Shown: one piece after another, positions 8,274 through 29,225 of the stretch
Numbering within the stretch: the stretch's first letter is position 1
Layout: every line of letters starts with the position of its first letter
Translations under genes and position numbers: made by a program
Source of the DNA: Armatimonadota bacterium
GTDB lineage: Bacteria > Armatimonadota > Zipacnadia > Zipacnadales > VGFC01
Direction of reading: 5' to 3'
NCBI GenBank assembly: GCA_016869045.1
Contig: VGFC01000027.1
Location: 1-33,977, forward strand
Length of the DNA: 33,977 nt
Notes under the pieces: model-generated
What the model was told of the DNA's origin: nothing
Databases searched by the model: none
What the model saw: only the letters and a program-made list of their open reading frames with translations

Positions 8274-10892
8274 TCACGCACGGTCTCCTACTTCGGTCTC
8301 TGTGGTGTTGCTCCCGGGATTCTCGTGGCGCCATTCCTCGACCTCGGTGCGGCAGCTCTCCGCCCACATGCCGACCCCGCACGCTTCGAGCATCCCGCAA
8401 GCCCGCTCCATCAGCTCGATGGCCTGCTCGGTCTGGCCCTCGGCCTTGGCGAGGTAGGCCATGCGCTGCCAGCAGCCGGCCAGACTGTAGCGCGCGCCGA
8501 TCACTTCCAGCAACGCTTCGGCCTCGTGGTAGCGGGCGGCGGCCTCCGCGTGCTCACCCACCATGGCGTGGACATCGCCGAGGCTCTGGATGCAGTTCGC
8601 CTCACCCGGACGCGCGCCGATGGACCGGTAGATGGGCCACGCCTCCTCGTACCGCGCCCGCGCCCGGTCGTACTCCGCCTGCAGCCGGTGCATGTCGCCG
8701 AGGCTCATCATGCAGTTGGCCTCGCCTAGCCGAGCCCCGACGGAGGCGTAGATGGGCAAGGCCTCCTCGTACCTCCGGCGCGCGTCATCGTACTCATGGC
8801 GCAGCCGATGCACGTCGCCGAGGCTGGCGATGCAGTTGGCCTCGCCGAGCCGCGCCCCAATCGAGGCGTAGATGGGGAGCGCCTCCTCGTATCGACCCCG
8901 CGCCTGGTCGTACTCGGCTCTCATGCGGTGCACGTCGCCCAGGCTACGGATGGAGTTGGCCTGGCCCAGGCGATCGCCTGCCGCCTCGCAGATCTCGAGC
9001 GCCGCCTCGTAGTGCTGGTGGGCCTGGTCGTAGCCGCCTCGCTGCAGGTACACGTCACCCAGGCCCCGGAGGCAGTTCGCCTCGTCCGGACGATCGGCGA
9101 TCGACCGACAGAGGCCCAGGGCCTCCTGGTACTTCGTCTCCGCCTGGTCGTAGTCCGCCAGCTGCAGGTGCACGTCGCCGAGGCTGCGGATGCAGCGGGC
9201 CTCGCCGCGGGGGTCGTGCAGACTGCGGGCGGCCTCCGCGCCCGCCCCCAGCCGCCGGACGGCCTCCGGGCCGGGCATCGCGAACGGGTAGAAGCGCCGG
9301 AGGGCTTCCGTCAGGTCAGCAACGTACTTCCTGTTCTGGTCTGCCGCGGCTCTCTCCAGCGCAGCATGGAGGTTGGGCAGCTCCGCCGACAGGACCGCGA
9401 CCGCCTCGGCCGTCCGGGGTACCCAGGTCGCCTCGTCGCCGCACCACTGGCGCGCCAGGCTCAGCAGCGACCCATCGAGCCTCGCGCGGAGGGCAGTGAT
9501 GTCAGGCTCCTCTCGGCGGGCGGCGAAGTCGCGCACCGGGGTAAGCATCGTGTAGCGGTCGCCCGCCACCTCCACCAGACGGGAGCGCACCAGAACGGCG
9601 GCGGCGGGCATCGCGCGATCATCGAGGACCTCCGTCAGCAGGGCACTGGTCGCGCCGCCCGGCAGATCCGCGAAGAGACGGAATAGCGCGCGGGAGGAGT
9701 GCTCCGGCCGCGCCGCGGGCCCCGAATCCGAGGGGGGCAGGTTCTCGTAGGAAAGCAGGAGCGAGATCTCGATGCTGTCGGAGCGATGTTGGGCGGCGGG
9801 CATCTCCAGGGCTGCGGTGCGCCGGCCCCGCCACTGAGAGAGCAGTGTGTCCAGGGAGTAGGCGTCGAGCTGCCTCGCGGCAAGAACGATCGCGAGCGGC
9901 CAGCCGCCAAGTTCCGCCAGCAGCTCGCCGCACCGTTCGTCGTCCCCGGCGCGCCATTCGTAGCCGCACAGCCGGGCTTCCGTCCGGAAGAGCGTGTCCG
10001 CATGGGCCGCCGTGAGGACGGGCACCGGTTCCGCGTGCTCGATTCCGGGCACGCCGATGGCTTCGCGTGAGGTTAGCAGGAAACGCGCCGCACCCCCGTG
10101 TTCGTGCAAGGCGCGAACCAAGGCGCGCACTCCGGCCGGGTCGTTCGCCTGGGCGAGGAACAAGTCGTCCAGGATGTGCAGCCGGTCGGCCCGCAGGCTG
10201 TGCGCAAGGTCCGCAGGCGTGGCGACCGGGTCCAGGCCCAGGCGCACCTGAATCTCCGCCGCCGCTCCGTGGGCGTCCGTGGCCGATTGCAGGTCGGCAT
10301 AGCAGACCCCCTCGCTCGGCCAGTTTTGCCGCGCCGCCTCACGGGCCACCGCCTTGGCGACCTCGCTCTTGCCGACGCCGCCGAGCCCGTACAGCGTCAC
10401 GATCCGGTGCTCGCGGAGCAACTGGCACAGGCGCCCGATCAACTCCTCGCGACCGACGAAGGTCTCGACCGGGGCGGGCGGCTCGGCGATGCACGTGGGC
10501 GCAGGCGTCGGCTTGGCGGGCGCAGGAGCCGGAGGCGCGGGCGGAGGTGGCACAGCGAGGGCGACGGCGTCGCGGCGGATGTCGAGATAGATGTGGCGGC
10601 CGATTCGGTAAAGGACGTAGAGCGCGTGCACGGGGATGATGACATAGAAGAGGAGCTTGTCGAAGCACTCGGCGTAGTGCTTCATGTCCGGGCGGACCCT
10701 CTCGATCAGCCACAGGCCGCCCGCGGCCAGAACGTAGACCAGCGCAGCCAGGAGGTTGGCCTTGAGAATCTGCCAGACCTCATGCAGGAAGTGACTCGCC
10801 TCATGTTTGGCGGATGGCGCGTCCAACCGATCGTGCTCCCCTCGGAGCGCCCATTCGCCGTCCGTGCGGTGTTCCCTTGTCCGCGGGGGCAT
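8274..10892 (-). CDS. STAND (NB-ARC) NTPase with two N-terminal TM helices and C-terminal TPRs
   Basis: 872 aa from ATG 10892; the in-frame extension upstream runs through a palindromic repeat and is probably not coding. Residues 47-64 and 80-96 are membrane helices, then a Pro/Ala linker (about 113-142). The NTPase follows: VGREELIGRL, Walker A GLGGVGKS (169-176), Walker B LHILDDLF (about 238-245), sensor FLLTSRE, and LGGWPLAI, the NB-ARC GxP motif. The C-terminal third holds TPR units of exactly 40 residues (ANC-x2-SLGDVH and YEEALPIYASIGARLGE). STAND proteins are ligand-gated switches: TPRs sense, NB-ARC oligomerises and the N-terminus acts as effector. Here that effector would be membrane-embedded. 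No good ribosome site is visible. The stop lies 36 bp from the broken prepilin. Confidence 0.85.
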   Translation of the reverse strand: MPPRTREHRTDGEWALRGEHDRLDAPSAKHEASHFLHEVWQILKANLLAALVYVLAAGGLWLIERVRPDMKHYAECFDKLLFYVIIPVHALYVLYRIGRHIYLDIRRDAVALAVPPPPAPPAPAPAKPTPAPTCIAEPPAPVETFVGREELIGRLCQLLREHRIVTLYGLGGVGKSEVAKAVAREAARQNWPSEGVCYADLQSATDAHGAAAEIQVRLGLDPVATPADLAHSLRADRLHILDDLFLAQANDPAGVRALVRALHEHGGAARFLLTSREAIGVPGIEHAEPVPVLTAAHADTLFRTEARLCGYEWRAGDDERCGELLAELGGWPLAIVLAARQLDAYSLDTLLSQWRGRRTAALEMPAAQHRSDSIEISLLLSYENLPPSDSGPAARPEHSSRALFRLFADLPGGATSALLTEVLDDRAMPAAAVLVRSRLVEVAGDRYTMLTPVRDFAARREEPDITALRARLDGSLLSLARQWCGDEATWVPRTAEAVAVLSAELPNLHAALERAAADQNRKYVADLTEALRRFYPFAMPGPEAVRRLGAGAEAARSLHDPRGEARCIRSLGDVHLQLADYDQAETKYQEALGLCRSIADRPDEANCLRGLGDVYLQRGGYDQAHQHYEAALEICEAAGDRLGQANSIRSLGDVHRMRAEYDQARGRYEEALPIYASIGARLGEANCIASLGDVHRLRHEYDDARRRYEEALPIYASVGARLGEANCMMSLGDMHRLQAEYDRARARYEEAWPIYRSIGARPGEANCIQSLGDVHAMVGEHAEAAARYHEAEALLEVIGARYSLAGCWQRMAYLAKAEGQTEQAIELMERACGMLEACGVGMWAESCRTEVEEWRHENPGSNTTETEVGDRA
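8571..9290. repeat. Six 120-bp tandem repeats encoding TPRs
   Basis: The segment reading (on +) like CACGTCGCCGAGGCT recurs at 8571, 8691, 8811, 8931, 9051 and 9171, exactly 120 bp apart. A GCCTCCTCGT block recurs between copies. Identity is high at nucleotide level, which suggests recent duplication or gene conversion and makes copy-number change likely. Confidence 0.85.
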
Positions 10893-10922
10893 GGGGGAGA
10901 AGTTACTGAGTTTCGGGTGGAT

Positions 10923-10997
10923 ACGGGAACAGTGGGGCGGGCATTCCTGCCCGCCACAGCCTCTGGCGGGCAAGAATGCCCGCCCCACTGTTCCCGT
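10923..10997. repeat. 75-bp near-perfect palindrome upstream of the STAND gene
   Basis: Arms 10923-10956 and 10964-10997 (34 bp each) match with one mismatch around a 7-bp loop. Core words GTGGGGCGGGCATTC and TGCCCGCCA are REP-like. It lies 31 bp upstream of the STAND start and about 115 bp beyond the stop of the gene at 11112. It could affect the STAND transcript's 5' end. Confidence 0.8.
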
Positions 10998-11111
10998 GTT
11001 TCTGCGAAGCGCAGTAGGGGCGCTTTGTCGGGACCAGAACGGCAACGCGCCGACGGACCGGAGTCCGTCAGCGCGCCCTATCGGTCCCAGAGACCCCTGG
11101 GCGGAACGGTC

Positions 11112-11546
11112 CTACGGTTGCCGGACCCGGACGTACCAGCCCGTCCAGTTGGGGGCATAGGCGTACACGCAGAAGTAGTGGACGCCCGTGTAGCCCGCCG
11201 TGAAGCGGATCTTGTCGGTCTCGCCGCGCCCGCGCTTGGACTTCCACAGGTAGTTGCTCGGCGAGCACCACGGCTTGTTCGTGCCGCGCGGGTTCGAGGT
11301 GCCGACGTACAGGTCGGGGTCGTCCGCACGCGTTTCGGGGACGACCTCGATCACGTACGTCCGGCCTCGGTTGCAGTGCGTGTGGTACAGCACGTAGTAC
11401 CCGCGCCACGCCCAGTCGTAGACCCAGCTGCGGCCGATCTCCACTCCGTCGGCCGCCCGGACGCCGTGTGGCGGCGCGATCGCACCGACGGCGAACAGGG
11501 CCGCGGCGAGCAGGGCCAGATCACGGATCAGTGCTTTGCGTCTCAT
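11112..11546 (-). CDS. Small secreted protein with a PPC-like beta domain
   Basis: 144 aa from ATG 11546 (AAAGGGG ribosome site). The signal peptide is residues 1-31 (LALLAAALFAVGAIA, cleavage near VRAADG). The mature part resembles a bacterial pre-peptidase C-terminal (PPC) domain: YVIEVVPETRADDPDLYVG and later YTGVHYFCVYAYAPNWTGWYV. PPC domains are beta-sandwiches usually appended to secreted proteases; here the domain stands alone. It contains three or four cysteines and many aromatics. It lies 56 bp downstream of a prepilin gene and is probably cotranscribed. The domain call is by pattern only. Confidence 0.7.
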   Translation of the reverse strand: MRRKALIRDLALLAAALFAVGAIAPPHGVRAADGVEIGRSWVYDWAWRGYYVLYHTHCNRGRTYVIEVVPETRADDPDLYVGTSNPRGTNKPWCSPSNYLWKSKRGRGETDKIRFTAGYTGVHYFCVYAYAPNWTGWYVRVRQP

Positions 11547-11602: not shown

Positions 11603-12265
11603 CTACTGCAGGTCCCACAGGTACTCCGGCGAGCGCGTCGCCGCCTCGGGCATTCGCTTCACATGCCCGTCCATGAAGGCGAAGTTCGCAGCTTCATGAT
11701 GCCGCTCGGTCGGGAGGACCTGCTCTTGCATTCCGAGCGCGAGGTAGTGGTCCAGGTCGAGCGCGACGGGTACGTTGCTGTAGCCTGCGTCGCAGAGCAT
11801 GATCGTGGCGGCCGGGCTGTGCACTGACGCGACCGTGACCGGCTCGCCCCGGCCGCCGCCCATCGCGGTCAGATCGGGGGGCGAGAGCCACGCATTCAGT
11901 GCGTACGTCGCTTGCAGCTCCGTGGGCAGCTCGTCGGCCTTCGGCCCTCGGTGCTCCCACGCGGGACAGGTCAAGACGCTTCGGTTGCGGACATACGGCT
12001 GGGCTGCCTCGCGCCAGGAGGCATACGGCTCCGTGCCGGTTGCCACATAGGAGACGGGGAAGGTCTCGTCATTGTCCTGCAGGTACATCTCGACCGCCAG
12101 GCTGAGTTGGTGCAGGTTGCCGGAGCAGACGCTCTCCCAGGCCTTGTGGCGCACCGACTGCAGCACCGGGAACAGGATCGCGGCCACCACGGCGATCACC
12201 GCGATGACGACGAGCAACTCAGTGAGAGTGAACCCTCTGACTCCCCGGCAAACGTGGGTGCGCAC
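11603..12265 (-). CDS. Type IV prepilin-like protein, H-x9-DG family (intact)
   Basis: 220 aa. A short basic leader precedes the prepilin peptidase site and hydrophobic helix GFTLTELLVVIAVIAVVAAI (residues about 11-30), so the product should be processed by PilD and assembled or anchored through this helix. The C-terminal motif HHEAANFAFMDGHVKRM is H-x9-DG. Such proteins are numerous in Planctomycetes and Armatimonadota, and their individual roles are mostly unknown. A near-consensus promoter with an operator-like dyad lies 38 bp upstream, unlike the other prepilin in this window. It is probably cotranscribed with the PPC-like gene downstream. Confidence 0.9.
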   Translation of the reverse strand: MRTHVCRGVRGFTLTELLVVIAVIAVVAAILFPVLQSVRHKAWESVCSGNLHQLSLAVEMYLQDNDETFPVSYVATGTEPYASWREAAQPYVRNRSVLTCPAWEHRGPKADELPTELQATYALNAWLSPPDLTAMGGGRGEPVTVASVHSPAATIMLCDAGYSNVPVALDLDHYLALGMQEQVLPTERHHEAANFAFMDGHVKRMPEAATRSPEYLWDLQ

Positions 12266-12302: not shown

Positions 12303-12336
12303 TACTATCTATAATAGTAGAACGCTCGAATGTCAA
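12303..12336 (-). promoter_or_regulatory. Sigma-70 promoter with BlaI-type dyad for the 12265 prepilin
   Basis: On the minus strand, TTGACA (12336-12331), 17-bp spacer, TATAGA (12313-12308). The dyad TACTAT-N5-ATAGTA (12303-12319) covers the -10. The same arms occur in the blaI promoter at 16099-16114 with a 4-bp spacer. This implies repression by BlaI or a related protein. The predicted leader is about 36 nt. Confidence 0.7.
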
Positions 12337-12437
12337 GAGAAGTTCATCCCGCGGGGGCCGATTCACCTGGCGGAGCGCCGACGCCGGCGGCGTGCCGGGG
12401 GAGGGGGGAGTCGGGTTTCGGGCCGGTGGAATGGGAA

Positions 12438-12469
12438 GCGGGCTTGCGGCACGCAAGCCACAAGCCCGC
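12438..12469 (-). terminator. Hairpin downstream of the 37-aa gene
   Basis: Perfect 9-bp stem GCGGGCTTG (12438-12446) with CAAGCCCGC (12461-12469), 14-nt loop, 28 nt past the stop at 12498. It is followed on the minus strand by TTCCCATT, not a strong T-tract. A factor-independent terminator is plausible. Confidence 0.4.
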
Positions 12470-12497
12470 CGACCCCGGAAGTGTGTCGATGGCCACG

Positions 12498-12611
12498 CTA
12501 CGGCGTCCTGGCCTTCTCCTTCTCACGGTGCTTCTTGAGCTTCTCCTTGCGCTCCTTCTTGGTGGTCATCACCCGAGCGCTCTTCTTCTCCTTCTCTCGT
12601 CCCTTGGCCAT
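12498..12611 (-). CDS. 37-aa lysine-rich small protein
   Basis: The reading frame from ATG 12611 gives MAKGREKEKKSARV, then MTTKKERKEKLKKHREKEK, ending ARTP and TAG. About 60% of residues are Lys, Arg or Glu, and the body should be a charged single helix. AAGGTGG sits 9 nt upstream of the ATG as a ribosome site, and a hairpin follows the stop. The composition recalls nucleic-acid-binding or ribosome-associated microproteins, but I do not recognise a family. Low complexity means a chance ORF is possible; the ribosome site and clean intergenic placement argue for a real gene. Confidence 0.55.
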   Translation of the reverse strand: MAKGREKEKKSARVMTTKKERKEKLKKHREKEKARTP

Positions 12612-12833
12612 CGTGCATCACCACCTTGCCGGTATGGTGTTCGGTTGACCCCCGGCGCCCAACCGCCCCACTAGAGGGCTACGCCGCAGACGCGCGAAGG
12701 TTCCAGGCGGCAGTGCATGTTTCGCCGTGGAGGCCAAGGGTCCTGCCGTCGCGTTGGGCAAGGCGGGAAGAAGGATGGCGTCAGCGGCCGGCGAACGACG
12801 GCGGTACGCTCTTTGCTTCGGAGGATTTCGGAC

Positions 12834-13973
12834 ATGACTTCACCTGTGATCCCGCCCTCGACACCCGCGCCTCCCACACCCAAGGGTCCGAGCGGATGGC
12901 TGTACGCTCTCATCGGATGCCTGGCAGTGCTTCTCATCGGAATCGTGGCGGCGGTGTTGGTCGTCGTCTTCGTGTGGCACCCCTGGCAGCGCGACGGCCA
13001 TCCCCCGCCGCCCACGCAGACGACGACGGTCGAGGAGGGCAGCGGCAAGATCGAGGGCACGACCGAGGTGACGACCACCACAGCCCCGGCGAGTTCGCTG
13101 TCCATCGAGGCCGGCAACACCCCGGCCGGCGGTGCGGCGTACAAGCTGTTCGCCGAGTCGGGTGAGGTTGTCGCCTCGGGAACGATCCCGGCAACGCTGG
13201 AGATTCCGGCCGACGCACGGTACAAGCTGGTCGCGGGCAAGACGGGGTACCGATCGTGGGAGGACTGGCAGACCATCGGGGCCGCGGGCTCGTCACAGAG
13301 CGTGTCAGTGAAGCTGGAGGAACTGCCGCCGGAGATGGTCACCGTGATCGTGTGCACGGCGACCGGACGTCGCGGGAACCAGTGGTGCCCGATCACCGTT
13401 CGCCGGGACTTCCGCCGGGGCGACGAACCCGGGACGTGCGCCGTCCACAAGGCCCCGCCAAACCAGGTCGGCGTGAAGGTCTGCACGGTCAGCGGCAAGC
13501 GGGCCAACCGCTACTGCCCGACCGTCGTTACGAAGGCCTTCGCCGCCAACCGCGTGCCGGGCTACTGCACAGTCCACCGCCCGCCCCCGCCGCCCCCGCA
13601 GAGCGGCGTCGTGAAGACGATCTGCCTGGACTCGGGGAAGCTGGCCACGAGGAACTGCAAGCGCACCGGCCAGAAGACCTTCGCGGTGAGCGACGTCCCG
13701 GCCTTCTGCACGGCCTGCCGACCGCCACCGCCGGGCAAGCCCAAGGCCACCGTGCGGATCTGCGATGGGAGCGGTATGCGGGCCGGTCGCTACTGTGTCA
13801 GCACCCACACGGTACGGATGGACGCGGACGCCATCCCGGCGAACTGCACGATGCACACCGAGCCACCCAACAAGGAGTCCACAGACGCGGGGCAGTACAA
13901 GTGGTGCCCGGAGTGCAATGCCCGCAATCGGGTCAATGCGCGCGTCTGCCGGAAGTGCAGCCACCGGTTCTAG
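12834..13973 (+). CDS. Membrane protein with four PBP-tail-like Cys repeats and a zinc ribbon
   Basis: 379 aa, ATG 12834 with GGAGGA 8 nt upstream. One membrane helix lies near residues 23-48 (LYALIGCLAVLLIGIVAAV), then a Thr-rich linker and a PEGA-like beta domain (about 88-165). Four repeats of about 45-50 residues follow, each of the form (V/I)C-x2-(S/T)G-x2-A/G-x3-C-x9-F-x5-P-x2-C with a Pro-rich spacer: VCTATGRRGNQWCP, VCTVSGKRANRYCP, ICLDSGKLATRNC, ICDGSGMRAGRYC. This motif is familiar from C-terminal tails of class A penicillin-binding proteins. The C-terminus is a zinc ribbon (WCPECNARN and ARVCRKCSHRF). There is no transpeptidase. It may bind the cell wall or a wall-synthesis partner. 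Confidence 0.75.
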   Translation: MTSPVIPPSTPAPPTPKGPSGWLYALIGCLAVLLIGIVAAVLVVVFVWHPWQRDGHPPPPTQTTTVEEGSGKIEGTTEVTTTTAPASSLSIEAGNTPAGGAAYKLFAESGEVVASGTIPATLEIPADARYKLVAGKTGYRSWEDWQTIGAAGSSQSVSVKLEELPPEMVTVIVCTATGRRGNQWCPITVRRDFRRGDEPGTCAVHKAPPNQVGVKVCTVSGKRANRYCPTVVTKAFAANRVPGYCTVHRPPPPPPQSGVVKTICLDSGKLATRNCKRTGQKTFAVSDVPAFCTACRPPPPGKPKATVRICDGSGMRAGRYCVSTHTVRMDADAIPANCTMHTEPPNKESTDAGQYKWCPECNARNRVNARVCRKCSHRF

Positions 13974-14224
13974 CGGGTGCCGCGAGGCTCCTGGGAGCGA
14001 CGCCCGGCGATCGCGGCCCTGACGTTGAAGTCCGGATAGGCGGCTGCGAGTTCCTCGGCGGCCGCGGGCGGCACGCCTGACTCCTCCAGGCCCTGGCGGA
14101 AGCCCTTGATGGCCTGCCTCCGCCAGCGGCCGAGCGCGCTCGCCTGTAGCATCATCCGGAAGACCAGACGGGCGGCCGACGGCAGCAGGCGCGCCAGGCT
14201 CAGGACGCCTTGTGGCCGCTCCAT
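13970..14224 (-). CDS. 84-aa hypothetical protein in the ECF sigma operon
   Basis: 84 aa. ATG 14224 overlaps the upstream gene by 25 nt, so translation is probably coupled. The N-terminal 35 residues are basic and amphipathic (LLPSAARLVFRMMLQASALGRWRRQ). The centre (AIKGFRQGLEESGVPPAAA then EELAAAY) repeats the pattern of the neighbouring 90-aa protein. No family was recognised. Its stop shares the CTAG tetranucleotide with the stop of the convergent gene ending at 13973. Confidence 0.65.
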   Translation of the reverse strand: MERPQGVLSLARLLPSAARLVFRMMLQASALGRWRRQAIKGFRQGLEESGVPPAAAEELAAAYPDFNVRAAIAGRRSQEPRGTR

Positions 14225-14472
14225 TTGGTCTGCTCCAGCATGGACTGCAGGCTGCCGATGTAGCTCTTCGCCATCTCCAGCGCGTCCTCGACCGGGATTC
14301 CGCTGTCCACCAGCTCCTTGTAGAAGGCCCCTACCGCGCGGCCCAGGTCCTGCCCGGCCTCCGCCGAGAATAGCGTAGACCGAAGCTGGTTTAGCAGGCC
14401 AGGCAGCTTCTCGGTTACGACGTCCATCAACTCCTTGATGTCCTCGACGGGGATTTCCCTGTCGTGCGCCAT
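14200..14472 (-). CDS. 90-aa hypothetical protein in the ECF sigma operon
   Basis: 90 aa. ATG 14472 has AAGGAGG 8 nt upstream; the GTG at 14481 would overlap that site and is rejected. All-helical and acidic: EDIKELMDVVTEKLPGLLN, then AVGAFYKELVDSGIPVEDA and LEMAKSY. It contains no Cys, no TM and no obvious DNA-binding motif. It follows the anti-sigma gene by 18 bp. The F-x3-L-x2-SG(I/V)P-x3-A-x3-A-x2-Y pattern is shared with the next small gene. Function unknown; it may interact with the sigma system. Confidence 0.75.
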   Translation of the reverse strand: MAHDREIPVEDIKELMDVVTEKLPGLLNQLRSTLFSAEAGQDLGRAVGAFYKELVDSGIPVEDALEMAKSYIGSLQSMLEQTKWSGHKAS

Positions 14473-14490
14473 CTCGCGCACCTCCTTGCC

Positions 14491-14847
14491 TCAGGTACCT
14501 ACGCGAACGGTTGCGACCAGGGGGATGTTCACGGTCAAGGCCGGACGGGTTCGGGGCAGCTCGATAGCCTGTCGAACTGCCTGGGCCACGATCGCGGGCC
14601 CACCCAGCGCTTCCACCAATGACGTTAGCGGCCCGGCCAGCTCCGTGACCGGCCGCACTCCGCCCGTCGGCAGGGCCTGCACGGCCCGGGTCAGCCGCCG
14701 CTGAAGCACGACCGACTGCACGAACTCCGTCCGACACGCCCGGCAGCCGGCGATGTGCCGATAGAGCCCGCACTGCTCTTCAGCCGAGGCCGTCGCGTTC
14801 ACGACCCACGGTACCAACTCCAGGGCTTCCTCGCAGGAAGGCTCCAC
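14491..14847 (-). CDS. Soluble zinc-binding anti-sigma factor
   Basis: 118 aa from GTG 14847, which has GGGAGGAG 6 nt upstream inside the end of the sigma gene. The N-terminal third carries the ZAS zinc motif H-x3-C-x2-C (HIAGCRACRTEF), with a Cys at residue 5 as a possible further ligand. This is how ZAS anti-sigma factors clamp the cognate ECF sigma, often in a redox-sensitive way. No transmembrane helix follows, so it is predicted to be cytoplasmic and would sense an internal signal. The remaining 70 residues are of unknown fold. Confidence 0.8.
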   Translation of the reverse strand: MEPSCEEALELVPWVVNATASAEEQCGLYRHIAGCRACRTEFVQSVVLQRRLTRAVQALPTGGVRPVTELAGPLTSLVEALGGPAIVAQAVRQAIELPRTRPALTVNIPLVATVRVGT

Positions 14848-14849
14848 GT

Positions 14850-15353
14850 TCAGCTCCTCCCTTGCAGCAGCGCCTGCAGCCTGCGCCGGGCGTAGAACGT
14901 CCGCGACTTCACCGTGCCAACCGGTACGTCCATGATCTGCCCGATCTCCCGCTGCGAGAAGCCGTAGTGGAACACGAGTAACAGCAGCTCCCGGTCGTCG
15001 GGCTGCAGGTGGTCGAAGGTCTCCCAGAACTCGATCGCGGAGGCGTCGCCGGCGACTGCCTCGGGGAGCGGCCGGGTCTCGGCCTGGGGGCAGCGCCGCA
15101 GGGCATCGGCCACCTTGTGGCGGCAGATGCCAAACAGCCACGTGCTGACCGACGAAGCCCCGCGATAGGCCGAGGCCGACCGCCACGCGGCGAGCATCGT
15201 CTCCTGGACCACATCCTCCGCGAGCTGCCGGTCGCGCGTTCGGAGGAGCGCGTAGCGGAAGAGCCGGTCAGCGTAGGTCTCATGGAGGTCCCGCATCGCT
15301 GGGGACTCGCCCGCGGCGATCCGCTTCAGCAGCCTCTCCTCGCCGGTCCCCAC
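14850..15353 (-). CDS. ECF-type RNA polymerase sigma factor
   Basis: 167 aa, GTG start with TAGGAG 4 nt upstream. Region 2 is clear (YADRLFRYALLRTRDRQLAE, DVVQETMLAAW, STWLFGICRHKVAD), and region 4 has the helix-turn-helix (LLVFHYGFSQREIGQIMDV, PVGTVKSRTFYARRRLQALL). It lacks sigma regions 1 and 3, as in group IV sigma factors. It directs transcription of a stress regulon that cannot be named from the sequence. It heads a four-gene minus-strand operon with its anti-sigma factor and two small helical proteins. Confidence 0.93.
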   Translation of the reverse strand: MGTGEERLLKRIAAGESPAMRDLHETYADRLFRYALLRTRDRQLAEDVVQETMLAAWRSASAYRGASSVSTWLFGICRHKVADALRRCPQAETRPLPEAVAGDASAIEFWETFDHLQPDDRELLLLVFHYGFSQREIGQIMDVPVGTVKSRTFYARRRLQALLQGRS

Positions 15354-15427
15354 GGCGCGCTCCTATTGCGCTCATCTGGTAGTGAGTCGCGGGAATCGGG
15401 CGGGAGGTTCACGGGGCGGCAACCCGG

Positions 15428-15997
15428 TTACCCCCCTGACACGGAGGTCGTCCGCACATGCCCGCAGGCCAGGCAGCGGTAGGTGATCGGTCGGCCGGTC
15501 TTGATCCGGGCCGCGCCGCCACACTTCGGGCAGAGCCCCAGTATGAGCAGGGCGAAGATGAGCTTCGAGACCACGAGACCCAGGATCGCACCGCCAAAGA
15601 AGACGATGGGCATGGGGAACCCGTGCGGGAGAAGGCTCGGCCCGCGCGTCGCGCCGAGGAAGGCGCCGCCCAGGAAGCCCGCCATCGTGGTGATGATGTA
15701 CAGCGGAAGGTGCAGGGGAATGGGCAGCCTCAACGGCCACTGGGCCTGGGCTGAGGGCACGATCGCGGGCGGCATCGCTGGGGAGTCCGCGGGCTCGTCA
15801 GCGGTGGGCAAGCCGATGTCCGGCGGCAGCGTACTCGTCGCCAGATCGGGCGTCGGCACAGGCATGGGAGGCGGCGGCGCAGGCGCGGGGGCCTGAGAGC
15901 CGTCGAGGGACCCTCCACAACTCCGGCAGATCGTGACAATCGATGACGCCGGGTTCTGGGCGCCACAGTGCGGGCAGATTCGTTGGCCCTGACTCAA
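15428..15997 (-). CDS. Membrane protein with two zinc ribbons
   Basis: 189 aa, TTG start preceded by AAAGGGGA. The N-terminal zinc ribbon is ICPHCGAQN then ICRSCGGS. A Pro-rich linker (about 36-80) leads to two membrane helices (about 99-115 and 127-153). The C-terminal ribbon is LCPKCGGAARI then YRCLACGHVR. Such double-ribbon small membrane proteins are common hypotheticals; zinc or protein binding on the cytoplasmic face is likely. The gene is divergent from blaI, and the palindromic operator between them could influence it. Confidence 0.75.
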   Translation of the reverse strand: MSQGQRICPHCGAQNPASSIVTICRSCGGSLDGSQAPAPAPPPPMPVPTPDLATSTLPPDIGLPTADEPADSPAMPPAIVPSAQAQWPLRLPIPLHLPLYIITTMAGFLGGAFLGATRGPSLLPHGFPMPIVFFGGAILGLVVSKLIFALLILGLCPKCGGAARIKTGRPITYRCLACGHVRTTSVSGG

Positions 15998-16070
15998 GAA
16001 GGCGTCCCCTTTCGCAGCTCATCCCCCTACTTCGAGGCCGCCGGTAGGGCGTCCTCCAATAAGAAGGGCC

Positions 16071-16115
16071 TTGACATGGGAACCTGATGGGGTTATAGTA
16101 CTATATATATAGTAC
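16071..16115 (+). promoter_or_regulatory. blaI promoter with an overlapping BlaI-type operator
   Basis: TTGACA (16071-16076), 17-bp spacer, TATAGT (16094-16099). A perfect 18-bp palindrome GTACTATATATATAGTAC (16098-16115) overlaps the -10 and the expected start site near 16106. Arms TACTAT/ATAGTA with 4-bp spacing resemble known BlaI/MecI boxes (TACTAC-N4-GTAGTA type). Autorepression by BlaI is the natural reading. Confidence 0.85.
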
Positions 16116-16135: not shown

Positions 16136-16546
16136 ATGCCGAAGGGCCGACAGGCACGAATCACGGAGTTGGGGGAGCTGCAATTGCAGGCGCTGGACCG
16201 GCTGTCGCAACTGGGTGAGGGCACGGTGTATGACGTGCTCGACAAGTTCCCGCCGAAGCAACGACCTCGCTACACGACGATGCTGACCGTGCTGCGCAGC
16301 CTGGAGAAGCGCGGGCTGGTGGAGCACCGCACGGAGTCGCGCTCGTACGTGTTCCGACCGACGATCGAGCCGAAGCGCGTGCGCGGGCAGATGCTGATGG
16401 ATGTGCTGGGACGGGCGTTCAGCGGATCGCCGCGGAGCATGGTGGCGACGCTGCTGGACACGGAGGCGGTCACGCCGGAGGTGCTGCAGGAGCTGAAGGG
16501 CCTGATCGCGGAGCGCGAGGCGAGGGGAGATGACGACGAGTCCTGA
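16136..16546 (+). CDS. blaI: BlaI/MecI-family transcriptional repressor
   Basis: 136 aa, ATG start with GAGGTG upstream. The N-terminal winged helix is typical: ELGELQLQALDRLSQLGEG, TVYDVL, then YTTMLTVLRSLEKRGLVEH and a wing strand (TESRSYVFRP). The C-terminal helices (LMDVLGRAFSGSPRSMVATL) dimerise. These repressors bind TAC-rich dyads and are inactivated by cleavage triggered by a BlaR1 membrane protease. Here the dyad lies on the gene's own promoter and the protease gene overlaps its end by 17 nt. Confidence 0.93.
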   Translation: MPKGRQARITELGELQLQALDRLSQLGEGTVYDVLDKFPPKQRPRYTTMLTVLRSLEKRGLVEHRTESRSYVFRPTIEPKRVRGQMLMDVLGRAFSGSPRSMVATLLDTEAVTPEVLQELKGLIAEREARGDDDES

Positions 16547-18494
16547 TCTTGTGCTGCAGAGCATCGTGGGCGTTACGCTGGCAGTACTCCTGGTGTGGGC
16601 GGCTGCCGCCGTTGGGAAGAGGAGGTCTGCGGCGTTCCGGAATGCACTGTGGCGAGGCGCGGTGGCGGCATTCTGGATCGTGCCACTGGTCTGTGTAGCG
16701 GCAGCCGCCCTGCCCGCGCGGACACCGGCGATCCGCGTCCCCGTGCCCGCGGTGCAAGTGGGAGCAGGAGGCGCTCCGGTCGCCCCACAACCTGGAGCCG
16801 CCACCGTCGCGTCCGCCGACGGCCGGGTGCAGGAGGCTCCCGTTCGGTGGACCCGGTGGGCCAGGTGGTCCACCGCGCCCTTCGGACTGGTCGGCGGCGC
16901 CGTGTGGGCCCTCGGCGCACTGACCGGTCTCGGGCTGCTGGTGCGCGATGCGCTGACGGTTCGGCGGCTCCTGCGCACGGCGGCACCCACCGGAGGCCCG
17001 GCGGCTGATCGCGTGGCGCACTGGGCTCGGGCGCTCGGACTCCCGGCACCTCCGCGGAGTGCCATTGCGCCCTCGGTGCGGGTGCCCACCGTGGCCGGTC
17101 TCCGGCGGCCGACGCTTCTCCTGCCAGTTGACCTCCCTTCTCGGGCGCCGGAGACCGACTCGGTTCTCATCCACGAGATCGCTCACGTCCTGCGCGGCGA
17201 CGTGTGGATCCAGGCGGCCGCGTCCGTCACGCGGGTGCTCTGGTGGTGGCATCCGCTGTCGTGGCTCGTCACGGCGCGCCTGGCGAGCACGGCTGAGGAG
17301 TGCTGCGACGACTGGGTCATCTCCGCAACCGGTGACCGTGAGACGTACGCTGGTGCGGTCGTACGTTGGGCGGAAGCGGCGCACACGGCGGGCACCCTCG
17401 CGTGTGGCTCTCGCGGCAGGGCCCTCGTCCGGCGCGTCCGGAGGATTCTCGCCACCACCTCACGGCCGTCGGTGCGCCTCTCGGCATGGGCGAAGGCAGC
17501 GCTCGCGGGGTTGGCGGTCGTCGTGCTGGCCGGCGCAGGCGCCCTCCGGGTCCAGACGGTGCCCGCGGCCACGCTGTCGGTCTCTGCTCCGATCACCATG
17601 GGGGCAGGGACCAGGGCGCCCTCCGTCGGAGCCCCCGGAACCACAATCCACGTGGTCGCCCGGGGCGAGGACGACTCGCGGCCGGTCGGCGCGCGGTGCA
17701 CGATCGCGCTCCGCGACCGGCAACAGGCGCCCGACAGCCACACTGACTACGACGTGGCCGGCGCGGACGGCGACTGGACGATCCGCGGCGTGCGCGCGGA
17801 GACGTGGACGGTCGACGTGACCGCTGAGGGCTACGCCTGGTACGAGGCGGCGAACACACGGCAGGTTCGCGCCACCGGGGAGGGCGAGCAGACGGTTCGG
17901 CTCACGCTCTCCCGGGGCGGGACGCTCACCGGCCGCGTCGTCGCCGACGACACCGGCGAACCGATCCCCCGCGTGCTGCTCACCAGCGGCCAACTGGCCC
18001 TGAAGCGGGACGAGACGGACGCCAACGGCCGCTACACGCTGGAGCATGTGGCCCCCGCACCCCAGGTGGTGGAGGCGTACTGGACGCCGGGCTTCTACGT
18101 CGGTCGACGGAGCGCGGAGGTGACGGGCAAGGCCGCGGAGACGGTCACTGTCCCGGACATCCGACTGCCGCTCGGCGGGATCATCGAGGGTCGCGTACAA
18201 CTCCCGCCGGAAGGCTGCGGGGAGTGCCGGGCGCTCGTGACGGTCACCTCCGAGCGCCCGGTGGCTCCTGACCTCTTCCTCGATGTGTCCTACCCGAGCC
18301 CTGCGTCGAGCCGCACCTTCCGGCTCGGCCCACTGCCGCCGGGGTCCTACACCATCCACGCCAAGGTGTCCCACGGCAAGGGCCCGCATGTCACGCCTCC
18401 GCACGAGTGGACAGGCCGACTGACCGGGGTCACGGTCAAGACGAAGCAGACGGTGCAGAACGTCGTCGTCGCGGCCGGGCCGCCGGCGCCCTAG
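16530..18494 (+). CDS. blaR1: BlaR1-like M56 metalloprotease with carboxypeptidase-regulatory-like sensor
   Basis: 654 aa. ATG lies within the end of blaI, after GAGGGGAG. Membrane helices near 9-29, 41-61 and 117-138 precede the M56 zinc protease motif HEIAH (215-219, LIHEIAHVLRGD) and the downstream ECCDDWVI. A fourth helix is near 322-340. In classic BlaR1 the extracellular C-terminus is a beta-lactam-binding PBP-like domain. Here it is replaced by about 300 residues of two or more carboxypeptidase-regulatory-like beta domains (GTLTGRVVADDTGEPIPRV and GGIIEGRVQLPPEG). The signal sensed is therefore probably not a beta-lactam. It should cleave, or lead to cleavage of, BlaI. Confidence 0.88.
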   Translation: MTTSPDLVLQSIVGVTLAVLLVWAAAAVGKRRSAAFRNALWRGAVAAFWIVPLVCVAAAALPARTPAIRVPVPAVQVGAGGAPVAPQPGAATVASADGRVQEAPVRWTRWARWSTAPFGLVGGAVWALGALTGLGLLVRDALTVRRLLRTAAPTGGPAADRVAHWARALGLPAPPRSAIAPSVRVPTVAGLRRPTLLLPVDLPSRAPETDSVLIHEIAHVLRGDVWIQAAASVTRVLWWWHPLSWLVTARLASTAEECCDDWVISATGDRETYAGAVVRWAEAAHTAGTLACGSRGRALVRRVRRILATTSRPSVRLSAWAKAALAGLAVVVLAGAGALRVQTVPAATLSVSAPITMGAGTRAPSVGAPGTTIHVVARGEDDSRPVGARCTIALRDRQQAPDSHTDYDVAGADGDWTIRGVRAETWTVDVTAEGYAWYEAANTRQVRATGEGEQTVRLTLSRGGTLTGRVVADDTGEPIPRVLLTSGQLALKRDETDANGRYTLEHVAPAPQVVEAYWTPGFYVGRRSAEVTGKAAETVTVPDIRLPLGGIIEGRVQLPPEGCGECRALVTVTSERPVAPDLFLDVSYPSPASSRTFRLGPLPPGSYTIHAKVSHGKGPHVTPPHEWTGRLTGVTVKTKQTVQNVVVAAGPPAP

Positions 18495-25735: not shown

Positions 25736-25910
25736 ACAACTAGGAAAGCGCTTGCCGGGAGGCCCCTGAGGAGGGGGCCCCCGGGCCTGTGTAACCGTCC
25801 GCCGATACCGGACGCATCGAAGCAATAGACGCAGCAACAGACGAACCATGGCCCACCAGGGTCTCCGCTCGGGCGCATCGAGCGGAACGTTGCAGCAGGA
25901 GGCGAACCGC
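25736..25910 (+). promoter_or_regulatory. Structured 5' leader of the Big_1 gene
   Basis: Three potential hairpins: a GC-rich stem with two bulges at 25754-25786 (core GGCCCC/GGGGCC), GTCCG/CGGAC at 25797-25813, and TCCGCTCG/CGAGCGGA at 25864-25886. A ribosome site AGGAGG lies at about 25897-25902. No known riboswitch signature was recognised, including the c-di-GMP-I core. An in-frame ATG at 25848 is a less likely start. Confidence 0.45.
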
Positions 25911-28900
25911 ATGTCACGGTCCGGCACCCTCCGGTCGCGCGTGGCGGTCTTTTTGTGTTTCACCCTCGTCTTCACACTCATATCCCCCCTCCTGGCGGCT
26001 CCTGAGCAACGCAGTGACGCGCGGGTGCGCGTGGCCGTCGGCGTCTGCACAGACGGCAGCGGCACGGCGCCTGATGCCGTCGAGGCCCTTCAACGCGCGC
26101 TGCAGAGGTCGCTCGCGAGCGAGCGCGGTCTCCGCCTGGTAGGCCTGGACAACGGCGATCCCCAACGCGTGCTCTCGGCGCGGATCGCCTCACTGACCGC
26201 CGACGGTCGGCGGCCGGCAAGGGTCGAAGTCCTGGCGGAATACACGGACCCGGTCTCCGGGGCCGTAGCCTACCGCACGTCCGTCAGCGCCGAGGGGGCG
26301 GTGCGCCCGGGCGAGGAGCAAGTGGCGCGGGTCGAGCGGGCGGTCGAAGCCGCGGCCAGCCAGATCGTGGCTCAGGTCGCGAAGGCGGAGCAGCTGCGCG
26401 GGCACATCATCGGCACCCCGCGACCCAATGTCGTGATCGTGGATGTGGGCGCGAGCGTTGGCCTCACGGCCGGGAGCGAGCTGGAGGTCCTCCGCGACGG
26501 AGCCGTCATCGCTCACGTGCGGATCGAGCAGGTCTCGGACAACACTTCGACGGGTCGGCTGTTTGATGTCCAGCCGGGGGCCGAGCTCCGGGGCGGCGAT
26601 CAGGTGCGCGTCTTGTCGCTGGCGCCGGCCAAGGAGACGCCAAAGAAGCATCGGGGCAACAGCACCGCGAAGATCGCGGCCATCGTCCTGGGGGCCGGTC
26701 TGCTGGCGGCGCTACTGATGGGCGGAGGCGGCGGAGGGGGCGGCAACAACCAACTGACACTGGTCGCGGTGGATGCGCAACTGCCGGCCGACGGCACGAG
26801 TCAGACGACGATCACCGCGACCCTCCAAGACAGCAAGGGACGGCCGCTTCGCGACGGCACGAAGGTGGAGTTCGAGACAACCCTCGGCATGATCTCCCCG
26901 GGGCAGGTGGCTCTGGCGAGCGGCCAGGCCGAGGCGACCCTCACCGCCGGCACCACGGCGGGTACCGCCATCGTGCGGGCGCGGTCCGAAGGGAAGACGG
27001 CCATCGTGCAGGTCGTCTTCACGGCCGGACCGGGTCAGGCGCAACCGGCAGGCCTGACGGTCATCGCCGGCTCGCGGGAGATCCCCGCGGACGGAACGAG
27101 CAGCACCAAGATCACCGCGGTCGTCACCGACCGTAACGGCAACCCCCTGGCCGACGGCACGGACGTGCAGTTCCGTACGTCGCTCGGCATGATCACTCCC
27201 GCGGTCGCCAAGACCTCCGGCGGCCTCGCCGAAGCCGAGCTGCGAAGCGGCACTGACGCGGGCAAGGCCGTTGTCTCGGTGAAGGTCGGGAGGCTCAGAG
27301 ACCAGGTCAGGGTGCAGTTCGTCGCCGCCGGCGATACGGGCCGGCGATCGCTCTATCTGACGCGCTCCAAGTCCAGCATCCCGGCGGATGGTCAGAGCAC
27401 GGCGACTATCGAGGCAACCGTCAAGACCTCCGACAACAACCCCGTGCCTGACGGGACGCCGGTGCAATTCGCGAGCACCGCGGGAACGATCTACCCGGCC
27501 CGTGTAGGCACCGTGGATGGCGTGGCAACGGCAACCCTGCGCAGCGACCCGACGCCCGGCACCGCCGTCGTCACAGCCACCGCCGGGCAGCTGACGGCAA
27601 ACATCACGGTCAGCTTCGTGGGTGGCGGCGGGGCGGACGTGGCCAGCATCTTCCTGACGCGCACCCCCGCGGAGATCCCCGGCGACGGCGTGAGCACCTC
27701 CGCCCTGACGGCGACCGTGCGTGACGCGAACAACAACCCGGTGGCCGATGACACGCCGGTGATCTTCACCTCCACGCGCGGGCTGGTCGCGCCCAGCATC
27801 GCCTACACGCTGAACGGTCGCGCGCAGGCGACGCTGCAGAGCGAACCGACCTCTTCGGACCTCACCGCGACGGTGACGGCGATGGCCGGGTCGCAGCAAG
27901 CGGTAACCACCGTGAAGTTCGTGGGCACCGGCGGCGGACCGACCCAGCTCTCGCTCATCGCCGACCGCACGAACATCCCCGCGGACCGCAAGTCCACGGC
28001 CTCCCTGCGGGCGACGTTGGTGGACGGTACCGGTAAGCCGGTGGCCAATGCGGACGTGCGCTTCACGGCGAGCGCGGGGCAGCTTCAGGCCGCCGGCGGC
28101 TCGGGCTGGGTCAAGCAGCTCACGGTGAAGACCAACGCCCAGGGCATTGCCGACGTCCTGCTGCGCAGCACACTCAACCCGAACACCGCGACGGTCACAG
28201 CCGGCGCGCCGGCCGTGACGACCGACGTGGCCTCGGTGACGGTGGCGTTCACCTCCCTGATCATCCAGAGCGTTGCGGCCGACCCGGCCAGCGTTCCCGT
28301 GGGCGGCAACAAGAGCTCGAAGGTGACCGCCACGATCGTCGATACGCTCGGGAATCCGGCGCCCAACGGGACGGTGGTGCAGTTCTCCATCATCAACCAG
28401 ACGCAGATTCCGTCGGCGACGATCACGCAGTCGGCCTCCACGGCCGACGGGAAGGCCACCGCGATCTTCCGCAGCGGCTCGGAGGTCGGCACAGCGCGGA
28501 TCCGGGTCTTCGTGCCGGCGGCGAACGCCACGAACGATCAGACCATCATCGGCATCACCGCCGGACCGCCCGCCCTGATGACGGTGGCGGCGGACGCCTT
28601 CGTCACGTCGGCCCGTGACCTATCCAAGGCGGTCAAGGTCACGGCGCTCGTTTCCGACCAGTTCGACAACCCGGTGGAGGACGGGACGGTCGTACGGTTC
28701 GACGTCACGCCCGATGCGGGAGGCGTCATCACTGGAACCGGGGTGACGCAGGGCGGGTTCGCGCAGGCCAACCTCTACACAACCGGCTGGGTCGGCGACT
28801 TGGGCGTCGTCGCCTCCACGACGGGTGCGGGCGGCGTGACCGTAGACAACAGCGGGCGGCCGCTGATGATCCACATGGGCGGTGCACCCGCCACCGTAGC

Positions 28901-29225
28901 GATCATCTCGCCCGACCCGACCCTGTACACCCCGGCCTCGCCGCTGGAACTCTACACCGAGGCCGACCAGAAGATCGTGGTGCAAGTGAAGGACATCTCA
29001 GGCGGCCCGGCTGATCCGAACGCGCAGGTGACGTTCCAGACCGACCGGGGCAGCGTCGATCCCGACCCGGCGCCGATCACCGCGCCGCTGGCAGGTACGT
29101 GCACTGCGATCTACCGGTCCGATCAGCCGACTCCGCTCAGCGGAGTGGACCGCATCATCGCCGTGTGCGAGGGAGTGATCTCGAATCCGCTGTACATCTT
29201 CGTGGAGGTGAACCCGGCGCTGTAG
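25911..29225 (+). CDS. Large surface protein with Big_1 (bacterial Ig-like) repeats
   Basis: 1104 aa; ATG 25911 with AGGAGG 8 nt upstream. Signal peptide 1-30. Residues about 36-245 form a periplasmic domain like the FlgT C-terminal/CsgG-related type (VNVVIVDVGASVGLTAGSEL-like segment: NVVIVDVGASVGLTAGSEL). A membrane-like helix (about 252-268) and a Gly run lead to about eight Ig-like units of roughly 95 residues, with landmarks (L/I)PADGxS, TATVxDxxGNPVxDGTxVxF and TxxGxIxP. Big_1 domains occur in intimin/invasin-type adhesins. The C-terminus has no LPXTG, autotransporter or PEP-CTERM sorting signal, so anchoring may rely on the N-terminal helix. Probably an adhesin or a structural envelope fibre. 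Confidence 0.88.
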   Translation: MSRSGTLRSRVAVFLCFTLVFTLISPLLAAPEQRSDARVRVAVGVCTDGSGTAPDAVEALQRALQRSLASERGLRLVGLDNGDPQRVLSARIASLTADGRRPARVEVLAEYTDPVSGAVAYRTSVSAEGAVRPGEEQVARVERAVEAAASQIVAQVAKAEQLRGHIIGTPRPNVVIVDVGASVGLTAGSELEVLRDGAVIAHVRIEQVSDNTSTGRLFDVQPGAELRGGDQVRVLSLAPAKETPKKHRGNSTAKIAAIVLGAGLLAALLMGGGGGGGGNNQLTLVAVDAQLPADGTSQTTITATLQDSKGRPLRDGTKVEFETTLGMISPGQVALASGQAEATLTAGTTAGTAIVRARSEGKTAIVQVVFTAGPGQAQPAGLTVIAGSREIPADGTSSTKITAVVTDRNGNPLADGTDVQFRTSLGMITPAVAKTSGGLAEAELRSGTDAGKAVVSVKVGRLRDQVRVQFVAAGDTGRRSLYLTRSKSSIPADGQSTATIEATVKTSDNNPVPDGTPVQFASTAGTIYPARVGTVDGVATATLRSDPTPGTAVVTATAGQLTANITVSFVGGGGADVASIFLTRTPAEIPGDGVSTSALTATVRDANNNPVADDTPVIFTSTRGLVAPSIAYTLNGRAQATLQSEPTSSDLTATVTAMAGSQQAVTTVKFVGTGGGPTQLSLIADRTNIPADRKSTASLRATLVDGTGKPVANADVRFTASAGQLQAAGGSGWVKQLTVKTNAQGIADVLLRSTLNPNTATVTAGAPAVTTDVASVTVAFTSLIIQSVAADPASVPVGGNKSSKVTATIVDTLGNPAPNGTVVQFSIINQTQIPSATITQSASTADGKATAIFRSGSEVGTARIRVFVPAANATNDQTIIGITAGPPALMTVAADAFVTSARDLSKAVKVTALVSDQFDNPVEDGTVVRFDVTPDAGGVITGTGVTQGGFAQANLYTTGWVGDLGVVASTTGAGGVTVDNSGRPLMIHMGGAPATVAIISPDPTLYTPASPLELYTEADQKIVVQVKDISGGPADPNAQVTFQTDRGSVDPDPAPITAPLAGTCTAIYRSDQPTPLSGVDRIIAVCEGVISNPLYIFVEVNPAL

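Follow-up and report, generated by a model that had tools for sequence, protein, structure and literature searches.

Here we report that two palindromic promoters in a 33,977-nucleotide stretch of an Armatimonadota genome (contig VGFC01000027.1; hereafter the window), one before a blaI gene and the other before a prepilin gene, are probably look-alike operators of two BlaI paralogues rather than one shared operator. At the prepilin, the palindrome is very probably a true operator of the BlaI family, and on our best reading the prepilin gene belongs, at genus level, to an envelope regulon that spans the order and would be repressed by the second paralogue, BlaI-B. Annotation commonly treats BlaI/M56 pairs as switches for antibiotic resistance; here, sequences from 41 genomes speak for a conserved regulon, made up mainly of secreted and lipid-anchored proteins, that has no penicillin sensor.

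Two palindromic promoters in the window

As the preliminary description had it, both promoters have the form TTGACA-N17-TATAG(T/A), and their coordinates could be located on both strands. On the forward strand, the blaI promoter consists of a -35 TTGACA (16071-16076), a 17-bp spacer and a -10 TATAGT (16094-16099), and its dyad, TACTATATATATAGTA at 16099-16114, lies within a perfect 18-bp palindrome (16098-16115). On the reverse strand, the prepilin promoter has its -35 TTGACA at 12336-12331, again a 17-bp spacer, and its -10 TATAGA at 12313-12308; the 17-bp dyad TACTATTATAGATAGTA occupies 12319-12303. Both dyads had been placed over the -10 element, which holds for the prepilin dyad, centred on a -10 contained within it, and not for the blaI dyad, which begins at the last -10 base and extends across the presumed start site. 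The half-sites are 4 nt apart at blaI and 5 nt apart at the prepilin, a difference that was mentioned only in passing earlier and is the key fact here.

Both palindromic promoters are real and far above chance. The window holds no third copy of the dyad with up to two mismatches allowed, in agreement with the earlier reading, and shuffles expect 0.02-0.03; genome-wide (7.87 Mb, 723 contigs), exact TACTATN{3,6}ATAGTA has five matches and its reversed control none. Taken together, the window shuffles and the genome count against the reversed control rule out a chance palindrome.

The gene behind the reverse-strand promoter (11603-12265, minus strand, GTG start at 12265) encodes a 220-aa prepilin-like protein of the DUF1559 type (PF07963, PF07596, TIGR02532), with a class III signal, GFTLxE, and a hydrophobic helix; the family is assigned by sequence and does not imply assembly into pili. 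A secreted-protein ORF from the ORF list (11112-11546, minus strand), without a Pfam match and recorded as overlapping the prepilin gene at its end, is likely part of the same operon. The sister species G001 (VGFB01, an Armatimonadetes MAG and the only same-genus genome) has the same neighbour, a 76% identical prepilin orthologue and the same -35. Its 17-bp operator (C502:967-983) is identical to ours within a nearly identical promoter block, while the 60-bp upstream stretches are 45-48% identical and the leader 35%.

Several other features surround the two promoters. Upstream of the prepilin promoter lies a short Lys/Arg-rich ORF (12502-12612, minus strand; MAKGREKEKKS...) that is also conserved in G001 (L169 1115-1228), and downstream of the prepilin operon a STAND-type ATPase with tetratricopeptide repeats (8274-11045, minus strand). 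Between the two operators are an ECF sigma factor gene (14850-15353, minus strand) with a possible anti-sigma ORF after it (14491-14850), and a zinc-ribbon protein gene (15428-15997, minus strand) that is divergent from blaI and could share its operator region. Further along, a long exported-looking protein (25848-29225, plus strand) shows repeated Ig-like segments by eye from the translation. No RNA elements or tRNA were found in the window.

Two BlaI paralogues and their spacing classes

The genome contains exactly two Penicillinase_R genes, each adjoined by an M56 gene. BlaI-A, of the penicillinase-repressor family (136 aa; 16136-16546, plus strand; PF03965, E 2.6e-19), is the blaI product of the window, and BlaI-B is encoded on the minus strand of contig C11 at about 26105-26563, its Penicillinase_R match covering C11:26144-26497. 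Both carry the PF03965 winged-helix domain, and both fall far below the NCBIfam cut-offs of the named BlaI, MecI and CopY (CopY profile scores of 32 and 49 against a cut-off of 122 bits); they are members of the BlaI/MecI family and of no named equivalog. The closest solved structure to both is Mycobacterium tuberculosis BlaI 2g9w (E 3e-6 and 3e-11), a weak sequence similarity that is a likeness by protein and not by operator. Their putative recognition helices are consistently distinct, YTTxLTVLRxLE in the A group and YTTxMTT(L/M)xRL in the B group.

A penicillin sensor is absent from both M56 proteins in Pfam and NCBIfam. The BlaR1-like protease of the window (16530-18494, plus strand; PF05569, PF13620; HExxH motif HEIAH) carries a CarboxypepD_reg domain in place of the C-terminal penicillin-binding sensor domain of BlaR1/MecR1, and scores 45 bits against a cut-off of 400 for blaR1_generic. 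In M56-B (339 aa, PF05569, HExxH motif HEQAH), Pfam and NCBIfam found no domain beyond M56 and no penicillin sensor.

Orthologues of BlaI-A at 50% identity or above occur in 11 of the 291 genomes of the phylum, from many families, and every one of the 11 is preceded by a TACTAT-N4-ATAGTA-like dyad, which in most of them begins where the -10 ends. The N4 match beats any N5 arrangement in ten of them and ties in the remaining one; a 7-nt arrangement scores one point above N4 in two, the source being overlapping ATAATACTAT repeats. BlaI-A appears to regulate nothing beyond its own operon.

Of the 41 genomes, 30 have BlaI-B (50-100% identity, a weak 25% match being left out of the count), and an M56-B-like gene adjoins it in 27 of the 30. 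The promoters of its orthologues carry TACTAY-N5-RTAGTA in most genomes, so that each paralogue has its own putative operator class at its own promoter, N4 for BlaI-A and N5 for BlaI-B. The site before blaI-B in our own genome (C11:26693) is a weaker match.

A probable N5 regulon of mostly exported proteins

Across the 41 genomes, TACTAYN{4,5}RTAGTA has 156 matches in the 30 that carry BlaI-B and 10 in the 11 that do not (P 5e-6), compared with 69 and 17 for the reversed control (P 0.4); the genomes are related, and these P values overstate their independence. Since the search pattern itself defines the dyads, the evidence lies in their spacing, position and co-occurrence and not in the matches inside the dyad. 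Among 158 distinct sites read in context, the spacer is 5 nt in 156 and 4 nt in two, against 19 N5 and 30 N4 in 49 control sites. Just one of the 158 lies inside a gene, as opposed to 36 of the 49 control sites; nearly all the dyads are at promoters, chiefly of genes for secreted proteins and lipoproteins.

A gene starts within 250 bp of 130 sites, and in 23 of these cases it is BlaI-B itself. The other distinct targets number 102, of which 76 open with a strongly hydrophobic, export-like segment (21 with a lipobox), as do 67 of 170 non-target genes in the same stretches; a simple codon-usage caller supplied the gene starts, and hydrophobicity was the sole criterion of export. Recurring target families are small secreted proteins of the DTGRIIAGIAAGALVYG and WYRGYFDGEVT types and lipoproteins with a GGASVWV-type segment. 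The dyad overlies the -35 (TACTATTGACARTAGTA), the -10, or both as tandem copies 25-30 bp apart.

Exact N5 sites in this genome stand before the prepilin gene, a lipoprotein gene (C35), a cdsA homologue (C43, in tandem), two pairs of paralogous secreted proteins (C301 and C391; C189 and C3), a secreted 172-aa protein (C6:27163) and a signal-peptide ORF (C6:597), several of these sites departing from the strictest form by one or two bases. A scan allowing two mismatches gave 22 N5 sites against 19 in the control and 3 N4 sites against 16, counts that leave weak sites indistinguishable from noise; the C11:26693 site and a weaker tandem pair (3981/4006) upstream of a zinc-ribbon protein gene (C371) were retained for their layout. 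A zinc-ribbon gene stands behind this tandem site as well as beside blaI. Besides the prepilin, seven target genes or families have a site-bearing orthologue in G001, namely the lipoprotein, the C301/C391 family, C189, C3, C6, cdsA and blaI-B.

The prepilin is a target in this genus only, in two genomes. By the preliminary description, further hits in prepilin or envelope promoters would speak for a regulon: the sites do lie mostly before genes for exported proteins, and the sole prepilins among them are the present one and its sister-species orthologue. The prepilin belongs to a very large family, with at least 71 matches in this genome (G000), and a general prepilin regulon was rejected on the grounds that, despite these homologues, only the sister-species orthologue is prepilin-like among the 130 assigned targets. 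The earlier view that the link is not to a beta-lactamase agrees with what we see: no beta-lactamase or resistant transpeptidase was noticed among the targets read (Pfam was run on those of our own genome only). With no such target apparent and no sensor domain in either M56 protein, a beta-lactam response was likewise rejected.

Assignment of the prepilin site and known systems

Because the N5 class follows BlaI-B and the N4 class follows the BlaI-A orthologues, we assign the prepilin site to BlaI-B. We hold with good confidence that the prepilin dyad is the BlaI-B operator and the blaI dyad the autoregulatory operator of BlaI-A, and that BlaI-B represses a set of mostly exported-protein genes which M56-B presumably releases. 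From the sites and promoters, their conservation and spacing classes and their co-occurrence with BlaI-B, we infer binding, repression, proteolytic induction and a signal as follows. The BlaI-A/M56 operon would be autoregulated via 16098-16115, while BlaI-B dimers would bind TACTAY-N5-RTAGTA over the -35 and/or the -10 and block RNA polymerase at blaI-B itself, at many exported-protein and lipoprotein genes and, in this genus, at the prepilin operon and cdsA. By analogy with BlaR1, which directly cleaves BlaI in the staphylococcal system (PMC9834060), M56-B would presumably cleave BlaI-B on an envelope signal and so release the whole set.

The preliminary description had instead proposed one operator common to blaI and the prepilin gene, with the BlaI of the window and its BlaR1-like neighbour controlling both. 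The two sites do share the half-site TACTAT and the promoter layout, the genes are 4 kb apart, and both members of the genus have BlaI-A together with the prepilin site. We nevertheless consider control of both by BlaI-A quite improbable: the spacers differ in length by a single base, with each class following its own repressor, the recognition helices consistently differ, and N5 sites are plentiful in 23 genomes where BlaI-B occurs without a close BlaI-A orthologue. Since half-sites are identical between the classes, BlaI-A could also bind the prepilin site alongside BlaI-B, and the promoter would then integrate two M56 signals. Genomes with BlaI-A do average more dyads (7.0 against 4.7, P 0.02), and the largest genomes are among them. 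Such cross-regulation strikes us as unlikely, given that the strict spacing classes (156 N5 against two N4; N4 at all 11 BlaI-A genes) suggest selection for separate recognition.

Ownership of the N5 dyad by an unrelated regulator, or its being a structural DNA element, is hardly credible. A few genomes without detected BlaI-B still have dyads, as in G027, with four (79% complete). Against this, the dyad stands in the blaI-B promoters of most genomes and recurs near more distant BlaI genes of other phyla, and a BlaI with a measured motif shows the same N5 layout (PMC8457756). Exact N5 dyads near BlaI-B-related BlaI genes in one unclassified bacterium and three Aquificota MAGs suggest that the N5 class of operator extends beyond the Armatimonadota; in the MAGs (L180 2501, L181 2523, L183 2493) they lie about 500 bp upstream. 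Acidobacterial BlaI relatives have no TACTA-type dyad, and the N5 rule therefore does not cover all relatives.

In a wider interpretation, to which we give about an even chance, an M56/BlaI pair lacking a penicillin sensor governs a general response of the envelope throughout an order of Armatimonadota, perhaps also in other phyla; a one-base difference between N4 and N5 would insulate it from a second BlaI/M56 pair of the same cell, and individual lineages would add targets such as the prepilin operon. A literature search returned nothing direct on an envelope role of BlaI/M56. The sequences also point to a simple spacing rule that keeps apart two repressor paralogues sharing one half-site, and this rule offers a means of matching operators with BlaI paralogues in other genomes.

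The staphylococcal BlaI/BlaR1 and MecI/MecR1 systems likewise place a repressor gene beside an M56 protease gene and an operator over the promoter; unlike them, the system described here lacks a penicillin-sensor domain, and neither a beta-lactamase nor a mecA target was seen. Clostridium thermocellum BlaI_0696 binds GTCTAT-N5-ATAGAC (DAP-seq and gel shift) and shares with our system the inverted repeat with a 5-nt spacer, paired sites, autoregulation, adjacent BlaR1-type genes and targets of unknown function (PMC8457756), but it serves three operons only, whereas the sites here, with half-site TACTAY, recur at exported-protein promoters across an order. The 16-base CopY operator RNYKACANNTGTMRNY (PMC7253601) has a 4-nt spacing, the same as the BlaI-A site, and by the published sequences compared N4 therefore looks usual and N5 less common. 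CopY/CopR is metal-responsive and not M56-linked, unlike BlaI-A and BlaI-B. Its paired operators are mostly 24-39 bases apart, one of them proposed to lie over a -35 (PMC7253601), and the tandem N5 copies resemble both these and the paired sites of the C. thermocellum BlaI (PMC8457756).
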